Origin: Thermanaeromonas sp.
GTDB taxonomy: Bacteria > Bacillota > DSM-521 > Neomoorellales > Neomoorellaceae
Length of the DNA stretch: 64,000 nt
NCBI RefSeq assembly: GCF_021890735.1
Contig: NZ_JAKKUR010000007.1
Coordinates: 1 to 64,000 of the forward strand
Direction: 5' to 3'
The translations under genes were made by a program, and so were the position numbers. Every line of letters begins with the position of its first letter. The stretch's first letter is position 1. This document shows, piece after piece, positions 59,784-64,000 of the stretch. The notes beneath the pieces were generated by a model. It was not told the origin of the DNA. It made no database searches and saw only the letters and a list, made by a program, of their open reading frames with translations.

Positions 59784-60557
59784 TTAAGGTGAAGAAGGAA
59801 GAGTATCAGGACTTTGTTTTGCGTTGTTGGTTACGAAGGGGTTGTGTTTATAGATAACGACGTCGACGCGCCTGTTTTTTTTCCGGTTTTCCTCACTAGT
59901 ATTAGGGAACAGGGGATGGTATTCTCCATAACCTAAAGCTACGAAGCGAGTAGGATTTAACCCTGTATTTTCCGTAAAATAGCGTATTACGGTCGTGGCC
60001 CTCACAACCGAAAGCTCCCAGTTACTGGGGAACTGAGCGGTATTGATGGGCAGGTCGTCTGTGGAACCTACAACACCAATGTAGTTGGGTACGGTTTTTA
60101 GAAAGGCCGCTATTTTATCCAAAATGGGCAAGGCTTCAGGCCGGAGATTGGCTTCCCCTTTGTCGAAGAGGACGGAACCTGTAAAGCTTATTATAACCCC
60201 TTGCTCGTTTATGGTGATGAAGACTTCGTTTTTGAGGCCCTGCTCGGCTATGTATTCGCTTACCCCTGCGGCCAACGCACTTAAGGGATCACCGGGTTGT
60301 TCCGGCGGGACTACCGAAGGACCGCCGCCTAGCTCGGGAAGGATCATAGCCGAGCCTCCGGTAAAGATTTGGGCCAGGGCCTGGACCAGCTGCTGGTAGC
60401 GCACTATATCTACTTTGGAGATGGCATACATTACAATGAAGAAGGCCATGAGTAGCGTAATCAGATCGGCGTAGGTCAAAAGCCAGCGCATGATGCCGGC
60501 CGTTTCGTGCCCCCCCCCTTGGCCCTCATCTAGATCCATCTTGTCCCAGGAAGGCAA
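59784..60557 (-). CDS. motB: Flagellar motor stator protein MotB
   Basis: A 257-aa protein anchoring the stator to peptidoglycan. After a short cytoplasmic start, the single membrane helix carries the ion-binding aspartate (LLTYADLITLLMAFFIVMYA). The C-terminal OmpA-like domain (GVVGSTDDLPINTAQFPSNWELSVVRA, RFVALGYGEYHPL, NRRVDVVIY) binds peptidoglycan. The start is TTG at 60557, with GGGAGGGG upstream. Proton or sodium specificity is not obvious. It is paired with motA. Confidence 0.96.
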   Translation of the reverse strand: MPSWDKMDLDEGQGGGHETAGIMRWLLTYADLITLLMAFFIVMYAISKVDIVRYQQLVQALAQIFTGGSAMILPELGGGPSVVPPEQPGDPLSALAAGVSEYIAEQGLKNEVFITINEQGVIISFTGSVLFDKGEANLRPEALPILDKIAAFLKTVPNYIGVVGSTDDLPINTAQFPSNWELSVVRATTVIRYFTENTGLNPTRFVALGYGEYHPLFPNTSEENRKKNRRVDVVIYKHNPFVTNNAKQSPDTLPSSP

Positions 60558-60574
60558 AACGAATCCCCTCCCTT

Positions 60575-61351
60575 CTATTCTTCCCGGCGCCGTTCAGGGG
60601 ACGGCTTTTCCTGGAGCTTAAGTATCTCCAACTCCCTCCGGATAAGGCGGGGATTTTTACCCTGCACAATACCTAAGATGCCGTCAAGTATTATCTGGTT
60701 TGCTACTAGTTCTTCTGCTGCTTTAGCTTTAAGTTTAGCGGCAATGGGTAACCACAAAATATTAGCGGTAGCAATTCCGTAGAACGTGGCGAGGAAAGCT
60801 ACGGCGATGGAAGCGGCCAGTTGGTTTACATCGCTAATATTGCTTAACACATGAACCAGGCCCACTACCGTCCCTATAATTCCCATTGTAGGAGCATAAC
60901 CCCCGGCCGTCTCGAAGATGGCGGCTGCCTGTTTGGCCTGGCGTTGCCGTTGAATTATTTCATTTTCCATGATACGGCGTATCTCCTCAGGATCTATACC
61001 GTCTATGGCAAACCCCAGGCCGTTCCGTAGGAGGGGGTTTTCTTCTTGGTTGGCGTGGGATTCTAAGGCGAGAAGCCCTTCGCGCCTGGCTATTTCTGCT
61101 AGACGGACCAAATTGTCAATCAATTCGTCTAAATTGGTCTTGTCGCGGGTAAAGGCCTTAACCAGAAGGGCGGGGACACGCTGGATCTCCCGCATCGGGA
61201 AGGAAAACATGGTAGCTCCAATGGTCCCACCTAAGATTATCACCAAGGCCGGCAGGTTTAGCATTCCGCTAAGATTTATACCTTCCATAAGTATAGCGAC
61301 TACGAGGGCAAGTACAGCAAGGGATAAACCGATGATGCTGGAAATATCCAT
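60575..61351 (-). CDS. motA: Flagellar motor stator protein MotA
   Basis: A 258-aa four-helix protein of the ion-driven stator. MDISSIIGLSLAVLALVVAIL is the first helix; the second follows at LPALVIILGGTIGATMFSF. The cytoplasmic loop and the last two helices (YAPTMGIIGTVVGLVHVL with ASIAVAFLATFYGIATANILWLP) carry the proline and glycine positions needed for torque. Its own ribosome site is weak (GCAGG at close range), although a perfect GGAGGTGA lies 46 bp upstream in the leader. motB follows after 17 bp. Confidence 0.96.
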   Translation of the reverse strand: MDISSIIGLSLAVLALVVAILMEGINLSGMLNLPALVIILGGTIGATMFSFPMREIQRVPALLVKAFTRDKTNLDELIDNLVRLAEIARREGLLALESHANQEENPLLRNGLGFAIDGIDPEEIRRIMENEIIQRQRQAKQAAAIFETAGGYAPTMGIIGTVVGLVHVLSNISDVNQLAASIAVAFLATFYGIATANILWLPIAAKLKAKAAEELVANQIILDGILGIVQGKNPRLIRRELEILKLQEKPSPERRREE

Positions 61352-61590: not shown

Positions 61591-63252
61591 ATGCAGGGGA
61601 TGCCTCGCTTCACCAATATTTTTAGCCGTGTGCAATTTAAGGAAGACGGTGAAGATGAGAGCCTGGTGGTACTAGAAGCAACTGGCCCCTTCCCTTTTGA
61701 ACTGGTGGCGGAAGGACCTTGCCTTTACAGCTTAAAGGTTCGGGGGAAACTCAATATGTTCTCGGGCCCTTTAGAGGTGCGGGACGGGATCATTAAGCAG
61801 GTTTCCATCAAGGAGGAAGGTCCTGAAGAGGCCAGATTTCTAATTCATCTTGAGGTCCCTACGGAAGCTTTTACCACAGTTCAGAAGGGGTTGCCGGCCA
61901 AGGTTACGGTACATCTAAGCCGCAAGCCCATGAAGGAGTTTTACCAGGGGCGCCTCCTGGTGATCGACCCGGGCCACGGGGGACCAGATGCCGGCCACCG
62001 GGGTCCTGTAAACCTTTGGGAACGAGATATGGTATGGATTGCCGCTCGGGAATTTGCCGAAATTTTACAACACTTGGGTGCTATGGTGGTAATAACCAGG
62101 GAGAAAGAAGAGAATCCTTCTTGGAAGGAAAGAATAAAAAAGGCGGGAACAGAGACGTCTCTTTTTTTGAGCCTGCATACCCACGGAAGTACGGATGAGA
62201 AAGTACGGGGCGCAGCCGTAAAATACAATCCCCGGGCTAAAGGAGGAGAAAACCTGGCGCGGATGGTTTTAGAAGCCATAACCTCTAAAACCAAGGTGCC
62301 CGGGCGGGGAGTAGAGCCAGAGAGCGAGTTGGCCGAGCTCGGGGAGACTCAGGCTCTTCTTGTGGAGATGGTAACTATTACCAATTGGGTAGATGAGGGT
62401 GTCCTGCGCAACCCCTATTTCTATCGCAAATTGGCCCAGGCAACTTTAAGCGCATTTTATCACTTTGCAATCCTTAACGAGGGATATGCAGGAAGCGAAG
62501 TATTCCTTAAGCCCTCTGTTGAAGCAGCGAAAACCGAAGAGGAAGCCCAGAAGAAAGATGCTAAAGTTGGGCCTCCGCTTCATTCCATCCCCAAGGCGGC
62601 TGTCAAAGGTGCCAGATACATAGCTAAAATACCTATCCGTACCCATATTATTACGGAGAAAGATAATATAGTAGAGGTAGCCCGGCGGTATACGGAAGGG
62701 ATAGTCGGTCCGGGGGATGTTATCGCCTTGGCCGAAAGTGTAGTAGCTATTTCTCAAGGCCGGGCCATTCTTCCGGAAAATGTTAAACCTGGCTGGCTGG
62801 CCCGGTTTTTATGTCGCTTTCCGGAGAAATCGGGTAGCCTGGCTACACCTGCAGCTATGCAACTGGCCATTCAGGAGGCAGGTTGGCTCCGCATTTTGGC
62901 CGGATGTTTGGCCGCAGCTATAGGCAGGCTCTTGCACCGCAAAGGATATTTTTATATAGTAGCAGGGAGGGAACTGGCGCTAATCGATGATGTAGCTGGT
63001 ACGATGTACCCCTATGACCGGCACATAGTTTTGGGTCCCCGGGAGCCTCAAAAGGTGGTTGAAGAGATTAAAAAGGCTACCAGAGCCGAGGCAGTAATTG
63101 CTGATGTAAACGACCTGGGGTGCGTAGATATTCTGGCAGTGACCAAGGGCACTGCCTTGCGCGCCGTACAGGAGGCCCTACGGGATAATCCCTTTGGAAA
63201 TGAAGATGAGCAGACTCCTATTGTGGTTTTAAAACGTCTAAGGGTTACTTAA
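61591..63252 (+). CDS. N-acetylmuramoyl-L-alanine amidase fused to a CofE-like ligase domain
   Basis: A 553-aa two-enzyme protein. Residues 1-115 form a beta-rich domain like AMIN. Residues 120-297 are Amidase_3 with all zinc and catalytic positions: VIDPGHGG (H129), LWERD (E144), SLHTHGS (H196) and LLVEMV (E259). After a charged linker (300-345), residues 346-553 resemble Firmicute coenzyme F420-0:L-glutamate ligase-like proteins (IPIRTHIITEKDNIVEVARR, PGDVIALAESVVAISQGRAI, DRHIVLGPREPQK, DVNDLG, DNPFGNEDEQTP). No signal peptide or membrane segment begins the protein, odd for a wall amidase. ATG start with GGAGGTGG. The function of the fusion is unknown. Confidence 0.85.
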   Translation: MQGMPRFTNIFSRVQFKEDGEDESLVVLEATGPFPFELVAEGPCLYSLKVRGKLNMFSGPLEVRDGIIKQVSIKEEGPEEARFLIHLEVPTEAFTTVQKGLPAKVTVHLSRKPMKEFYQGRLLVIDPGHGGPDAGHRGPVNLWERDMVWIAAREFAEILQHLGAMVVITREKEENPSWKERIKKAGTETSLFLSLHTHGSTDEKVRGAAVKYNPRAKGGENLARMVLEAITSKTKVPGRGVEPESELAELGETQALLVEMVTITNWVDEGVLRNPYFYRKLAQATLSAFYHFAILNEGYAGSEVFLKPSVEAAKTEEEAQKKDAKVGPPLHSIPKAAVKGARYIAKIPIRTHIITEKDNIVEVARRYTEGIVGPGDVIALAESVVAISQGRAILPENVKPGWLARFLCRFPEKSGSLATPAAMQLAIQEAGWLRILAGCLAAAIGRLLHRKGYFYIVAGRELALIDDVAGTMYPYDRHIVLGPREPQKVVEEIKKATRAEAVIADVNDLGCVDILAVTKGTALRAVQEALRDNPFGNEDEQTPIVVLKRLRVT

Positions 63253-63334: not shown

Positions 63335-64000
63335 TTGGGCAAAAAGAGAAAGAGCAAAATGGAATCCGTGCAGGTTAATGGCGCGGTAACACAGGAAAAG
63401 ATACTACAACTTATGGAAGAACGCAGCTATAAACCCCTTACCTTGGAGGAGCTTCATGAGGTTTTGGGGGGTTCCTACGAGGATTTGAGGGAACTCCTTC
63501 AAGAGCTAGAACTTGAGGGTAAGGTGGTTCGCACACGGAAGAATAAATACGGGTTACCTTCCAAGATGGGCCTGGTGGCGGGCTACCTCCAGGTTTCACC
63601 CAGGGGGTTCGCTTTTCTTTCTCCTTTAGATAAGGGTGACGATGTCTATATCAGCCCGGCTAACTTGGGAGGGGCCATGCACCAGGACTTGGTTCTAGCC
63701 CGACTCCTTCCCTATCAGGGCCTTAAGCGCCGGGAAGGGGAAATAATACGGGTTTTGAAGCGAGCCCGTACCAGGGTAGTGGGAACCTACGAACAGAACC
63801 GGCGGTTGGGATTCGTCGTTCCCGATGACCCTCACCTGCACCAGGATATATTTGTTCCCTTGGAAGAAACTAAAGGGGCCCGCCATAAGGATAAAGTAGT
63901 GGTGGAAATAACCCGGTGGCCGGACGGCAGGCGTAACCCTGAGGGCAGGGTAGTAGAGGTACTGGGGCCCGCAGGAGCTCCAGGGATCGATATTTTATCT
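63335..64000 (+). CDS. rnr: Ribonuclease R, N-terminal part
   Basis: Only the first 222 codons lie in the window. The gene was not in the ORF track because it has no stop here. An N-terminal winged helix (ILQLMEERSYKPLTLEELHEVL) is followed by two cold-shock OB domains (GLVAGYLQVSPRGFAFLSPLD and VVGTYEQNRRLGFVVPDD), the layout of RNase R/VacB. The 3'-5' exonuclease RNB domain would follow outside. The start is TTG at 63335 or ATG at 63359; neither has a strong ribosome site. Firmicutes often have secG-rnr-smpB; here several genes separate secG from rnr. Confidence 0.9.
   Translation, partial: MGKKRKSKMESVQVNGAVTQEKILQLMEERSYKPLTLEELHEVLGGSYEDLRELLQELELEGKVVRTRKNKYGLPSKMGLVAGYLQVSPRGFAFLSPLDKGDDVYISPANLGGAMHQDLVLARLLPYQGLKRREGEIIRVLKRARTRVVGTYEQNRRLGFVVPDDPHLHQDIFVPLEETKGARHKDKVVVEITRWPDGRRNPEGRVVEVLGPAGAPGIDILS

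Follow-up and report, generated by a model that had tools for sequence, protein, structure and literature searches.

A single uninterrupted open reading frame (ORF) on the forward strand of the window, the whole 64,000-nucleotide stretch of DNA analyzed here, encodes a putative cell wall amidase joined to a ligase-like domain with the predicted fold of CofE (positions 61591-63252; ATG start, 553 amino acids [aa], no internal stops). The protein is tentatively interpreted, at somewhat less than an even chance, as a GTP-dependent CofE-fold ligase that would attach diamines to the D-glutamate (D-Glu) of cell wall precursors and would be paired with an amidase located in the cytoplasm. That one 553-codon frame joins an Amidase_3 domain to a CofE-like domain had been proposed in an earlier, sequence-only reading, and both Pfam profiles scored over their cutoffs; the two-domain layout given there held for both domains but required the addition of a further N-terminal domain of about 115 residues. 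The AlphaFold2 model of the fusion protein (mean pLDDT, 88.9) contained three folded parts, all on the forward strand: a beta-rich N-terminal domain (residues 1 to 115; 61591..61935; pLDDT mostly above 90), the Amidase_3 domain (residues 124 to 288; 61960..62454), and the CofE-fold ligase-like domain (residues 343 to 553 plus the stop codon; 62617..63252), the last of which was tethered through a charged linker (residues about 299 to 342; 62485..62616) predicted to be disordered (pLDDT below 50 at residues 302 to 338). Escherichia coli AmiC (4bin; AMIN plus amidase) was the top Foldseek match for the first two parts (352 columns), and the likeness of the N-terminal part to AMIN was structural only, with no Pfam match to AMIN even at an E value of 10. 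The next gene downstream is the start of an RNase R gene (63335..64000, forward strand; OB_RNB and CSD2 Pfam matches), and an RNase R gene likewise adjoined the amidase-ligase pair in G001 and G006 as well as in L091, where it was on the opposite strand. MotA/MotB-like flagellar stator genes, recognized by eye from their translations, were located just upstream on the reverse strand (59784-61351).

The assignment of the C-terminal half to the F420 ligase family was upheld by a match to PF01996 at residues 349 to 498 (E value, 5.6e-8; 33 bits against a cutoff of 25), which covered only profile positions 2 to 135 of 218. When folded alone with 52 relatives, the C-terminal domain (residues 335 to 553) gave a model with a pLDDT of 86 and a pTM of 0.83. 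This predicted fold matched five chains of Archaeoglobus CofE by Foldseek (structures 2phn, 7uld, and 2g9i; E values, 1.6e-7 to 2.8e-6; 241 to 257 columns) at TM scores of about 0.55 to 0.58 (2phn: E value, 1.6e-7; TM score, 0.57, for the predicted model), and the next best other match had an E value of 0.94. Because the match to CofE extended across the full domain, the C-terminal half is predicted to be a complete CofE-fold domain despite the partial Pfam coverage. Two motifs in the ligase domain were invariant, ADVND (D505, N507, and D508) and NPxGN (from N533). The ITDTN strand of CofE, whose Asp is presumably a metal ligand, aligned with the ADVND strand such that D505 and N507 corresponded, the mapping of ligands being reliable for that strand only. 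The window domain thus has in common with CofE of Archaeoglobus fulgidus (2PHN and 7ULD) the whole-domain fold, an N-terminal PF01996 match, and the DxN strand motif, whereas it is 16% identical in sequence and about 30 residues shorter and, unlike CofE, belongs to a type found in genomes without CofD, amid cell wall and decarboxylase genes. Another protein of the host assembly (L025:4251-5792, G000 contig C131; 513 aa) matched the full PF01996 profile at 143 bits, with an insert of about 300 residues splitting the match.

The Amidase_3 profile that the sequence-only reading had proposed to search with gave a strong match (PF01520, residues 124 to 288; E value, 8.6e-28; 98 bits against a cutoff of 27), and the two His and two Glu zinc or catalytic positions that it had named were intact as H129, E144, H196, and E259. 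Among 83 aligned homologues, the first three positions were each kept in 82 and the last Glu in 79, the exceptions at the last position being K in three rows, two of them from a single locus, and M in a fourth; both His residues were lost in the amidase of L101. The possibility that the amidase is a dead binding domain was rejected for most members, as the catalytic set was retained. The reported absence of a signal peptide was also confirmed, in that hydropathy of 83 sequences revealed no hydrophobic N-terminal segment in the window protein or its 82 homologues, with two exported neighbor proteins, included as controls, showing higher N-terminal hydropathy. The intact H-E-H-E set and the lack of an export segment suggest that the N-terminal half is probably a functional amidase in the cytoplasm. 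The CwlD equivalog model TIGR02883 scored 64.9 bits against a cutoff of 221.55, and the CwlV catalytic domain was among the best structural matches to the amidase. The window protein shares the H/E/H/E set with AmiC/CwlD-type Amidase_3 amidases (4BIN, 7RAG, and 1JWQ) and the AMIN-like plus Amidase_3 architecture with AmiC, but differs from these amidases in having no export signal and in being joined to a ligase-like domain, which in relatives is the next gene.

Amidase and ligase were encoded by separate adjacent genes in G001, which is of the same genus, in G006, and in a paralogous pair of the host (contig C3). The gap between the two domain matches was 141 nucleotides (nt) in the window and about 54 to 59 nt, with a stop codon, in these relatives, which indicates that extra coding sequence is present in the window; a charged linker of about 45 residues stands in place of the intergenic gap. 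No in-frame ATG, GTG, or TTG was found between codons 281 and 380 of the fusion ORF; with no candidate start present, internal initiation yielding a separate C-terminal domain was rejected. One lone sequencing error would not yield a longer, charged, start-free linker, and a frameshift or lost-stop artifact was rejected on these grounds. The merging of two genes by sequencing error, which had been raised earlier as a possible explanation, is therefore unlikely. The usual order in the 80 named loci and fetched relatives was amidase and then ligase, with the genes adjacent or overlapping. The two genes were adjacent in most loci outside the Negativicutes and fused in nine of the loci counted in a tree built by maximum likelihood from 106 ligase sequences. 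Four changes of the fused label were needed on this tree, at least three of which were forced by well-supported branches, and the fusion originated on at least three occasions within Bacillota. The window ligase was the sister of the unfused C3 paralogue in the same tree, and thus the fusion is young here and the partnership old. The unfused pair on contig C3 (L024:4149-5737) shared 66% (amidase) and 83% (ligase) identity with its fused counterpart; C3 is 6 kb long and belongs to a draft assembly, so that it may represent contamination by a close relative. No literature on an amidase/CofE-like fusion was found among open-license papers.

CofD (TIGR01819) did not score over its cutoff in any of 21 relatives, including the host, or in any of 61 Negativicutes. 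Weak CofD matches were all far under the cutoff and were mostly in frames of 430 to 530 residues that look like YvcK-type relatives. F420 glutamylation by the CofE-like domain was rejected because CofD was absent, and the name "F420 ligase" is accordingly misleading for this subfamily. Since the family scores as F420 ligase in bacteria without signs of F420 synthesis, the CofE-like subfamily of Bacillota is probably misannotated as a whole, including a near-universal gene of the Negativicutes (the class that contains Veillonella and Selenomonas).

A CofE-like gene was present in 59 of the 160 genomes sampled from the phylum and in 149 of 151 Negativicutes genomes, the latter nearly always having one copy; in the Negativicutes, the ligase was retained without the amidase partner. 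A small membrane protein without a Pfam match was encoded directly beside the CofE-like gene in all 20 Negativicutes neighborhoods, and MurI (glutamate racemase) was located one gene beyond it, upstream, in 14 of the 20. These companion proteins (L151-L170) are 170 to 200 aa in length with one apparent membrane segment, and similar-looking small proteins were present at the equivalent place in L178, L181, and L182. Hydantoinase-type and histone deacetylase (HDAC)-like genes often followed the CofE-like gene in Negativicutes and were on the opposite strand beside the Moorella pair; a Hydantoinase_A gene and an HDAC-like gene formed a recurring pair close to the CofE-like gene in many Moorella-type and Negativicutes loci (among L044-L049, L052-L064, and L151-L169). 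In Negativicutes peptidoglycan, the D-Glu of the stem peptide is modified with cadaverine or putrescine (PMC10628300 and PMC12826042). The candidate ligase is present in a class with diamine peptidoglycan (149 of 151 genomes), this wall chemistry being taken at class level rather than species by species (PMC10628300).

Neighbors confirmed by Pfam matches (OKR_DC_1, PvlArgDC, Amj, Polysacc_synt/MatE [MurJ-like], YkuD, Peptidase_S11, and Asp_Glu_race) corresponded to a pyridoxal phosphate (PLP) ornithine/lysine/arginine decarboxylase, a pyruvoyl arginine decarboxylase, the Amj lipid II flippase, a MurJ/SpoVB-like flippase, an L,D-transpeptidase with peptidoglycan-binding domains, a D-Ala-D-Ala carboxypeptidase, and glutamate racemase. 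The two nonhomologous amine-making decarboxylases recurred near the CofE-like gene in many arrangements. These included CwlD-like, amidase, L,D-transpeptidase, Amj, ligase, and pyruvoyl decarboxylase genes in Desulfofundulus (L056); amidase, ligase, and PLP decarboxylase genes in Pelotomaculum (L077); pyruvoyl decarboxylase, amidase, and ligase genes in G029 (L183); and ligase, PLP (OKR) decarboxylase, and MurJ-like flippase genes in a row in L192. Because most of these loci had been fetched by the ligase itself, linkage was tested again on an independent sample of 160 genomes of the phylum drawn regardless of the ligase, in which PvlArgDC and CofE-like genes were searched separately. In this sample, the two genes lay within 3 kb of each other nine times, across five taxonomic families, against 0.11 expected under random gene order in a 2.6-Mb genome (Poisson, P = 8e-15 counting genomes and P = 1.4e-7 counting families). 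All seven genomes of this sample with two PvlArgDC genes and a CofE-like gene had one PvlArgDC beside the ligase, which suggests that this copy is dedicated to the ligase. Linkage to decarboxylases and wall genes holds for the subfamily and not for the window's own copy, which has no decarboxylase next to it, only the RNase R gene downstream and the motAB-like genes upstream. The host genome contained no PvlArgDC and two OKR (PLP) decarboxylases, both unlinked to the fusion gene, and the diamine case for this copy therefore rests on homology.

As proposed here, a decarboxylase would produce a small amine (putrescine, cadaverine, or agmatine), and the CofE-fold domain would, in a nucleotide-dependent step in the cytoplasm, activate the free alpha-carboxylate of the stem-peptide D-Glu as an acyl phosphate and condense it with the amine. 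The modified precursor would then be exported by lipid II flippases, and the cytoplasmic MurNAc-L-Ala amidase may trim or recycle precursors of the same pathway or remove the modification; the proposal is weakest on what the amidase does, as all three activities fit. Diamine transfer of this kind has reportedly been described biochemically by Kamio and colleagues as a lipid intermediate:diamine transferase activity in Selenomonas ruminantium, and we know of no gene assigned to it. The predicted reaction is in common with that activity, and the candidate gene is near-universal and single copy in the Negativicutes. MurT-GatD amidates the same alpha-carboxylate of D-Glu in lipid II as that proposed for the ligase, but has Mur-ligase plus glutaminase folds unrelated to CofE and yields isoglutamine. 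The diamine reading is weakened for the window by the lack of a linked decarboxylase, by the presence of MurT-GatD in Moorella relatives (encoded a few kilobases from the pair in L048 and L049), and by the fact that, to our knowledge, a diamine wall is undocumented for Moorellaceae. CofE itself uses GTP and two Mn2+ to form an acyl phosphate of a carboxylate, which is attacked by an amine (PMC10861534), and by analogy this chemistry on the D-Glu alpha-carboxylate with a diamine would give exactly the modification of Negativicutes, of which the Selenomonas type is cited in PMC10628300. No paper naming a gene or enzyme of peptidoglycan diamine ligation was found in the open-license literature. 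That the CofE-fold class supplies the ligase still missing from wall polyamination in Negativicutes, and is coupled here to an amidase that trims or erases the same modification, is possible but more doubtful.

The sequence-only reading had suggested that the fusion might recycle or re-tailor wall peptides in the cytoplasm, in effect through gamma-glutamyl ligation. A cytoplasmic wall-peptide pathway is favored by the recurrent adjacency and repeated fusion of the two genes, whereas gamma-glutamyl transfer and recycling gained no direct support. The CofE fold, the cytoplasmic amidase, and the gene adjacency would suit such a reaction, but glutamate as the amine is unsupported, the family occurs without the F420 pathway, and the Negativicutes ligase has no amidase to work with; the neighbors point to peptidoglycan precursors (glutamate racemase and lipid II flippases) and to decarboxylase-derived amines. 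Ligation of an amine to D-Glu fits better than gamma-Glu chain chemistry, and gamma-glutamyl recycling is improbable. The ligase may instead join an amine other than a diamine, or an amino acid, to the wall stem peptide, with the decarboxylase linkage reflecting only wall-related polyamine needs. The broad peptidoglycan gene context (MurI, Amj, MurJ-like, L,D-transpeptidase, and DacA), the several lineages, including that of the window, without a linked decarboxylase, and the use of an amino acid as the natural amine of CofE (PMC10861534) are consistent with this explanation, which is nevertheless unlikely given the recurrence of two nonhomologous decarboxylases in many arrangements and the linkage of PvlArgDC above chance.

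Decarboxylase linkage would also be expected of a ligase of polyamine metabolism (for example, in gamma-glutamyl-polyamine formation), with the amidase an unrelated or repurposed amide hydrolase and no wall precursor involved. The HDAC-like neighbor agrees with such a role, as the HDAC-like fold includes acetylpolyamine deacetylases. Recurrent wall neighbors, including MurI and two flippase families, and the intact Amidase_3 catalytic set argue against it, no spermidine synthase or agmatinase was noticed among adjoining genes in neighborhoods read by eye, and this role is quite unlikely. Lastly, the amidase could be a signal-less sporulation amidase of the CwlC type, acting in mother-cell lysis, and its co-location with the ligase could reflect a shared spore wall regulon rather than one pathway. 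Bacillus subtilis CwlC has no signal peptide, the structural match to CwlV is in keeping with this role, and SpoIVA scored over its cutoff in all 14 of the genomes examined that encode the pair, which makes a sporulation role possible; the SpoIVA correlation is uncontrolled, however, as the sample consisted of pair-bearing genomes only, and the repeated fusions would be left unexplained, so that the prospect is slim.

Attachment of diamines to wall precursors thus remains the preferred, if tentative, reading. Polyamination of peptidoglycan tethers the outer membrane of Negativicutes through OmpM, and its chemistry has long been known; we know of no identification of the enzyme that attaches the amine to wall building blocks. 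The CofE-like family offers one concrete candidate gene and one protein for this step. In the window, a wall-cutting amidase without an export signal and a putative amide-bond-forming ligase, one that does not serve F420, are combined in one protein. If the proposal is true, the set of enzymes modifying the cell wall at the D-Glu carboxylate would gain a further fold.
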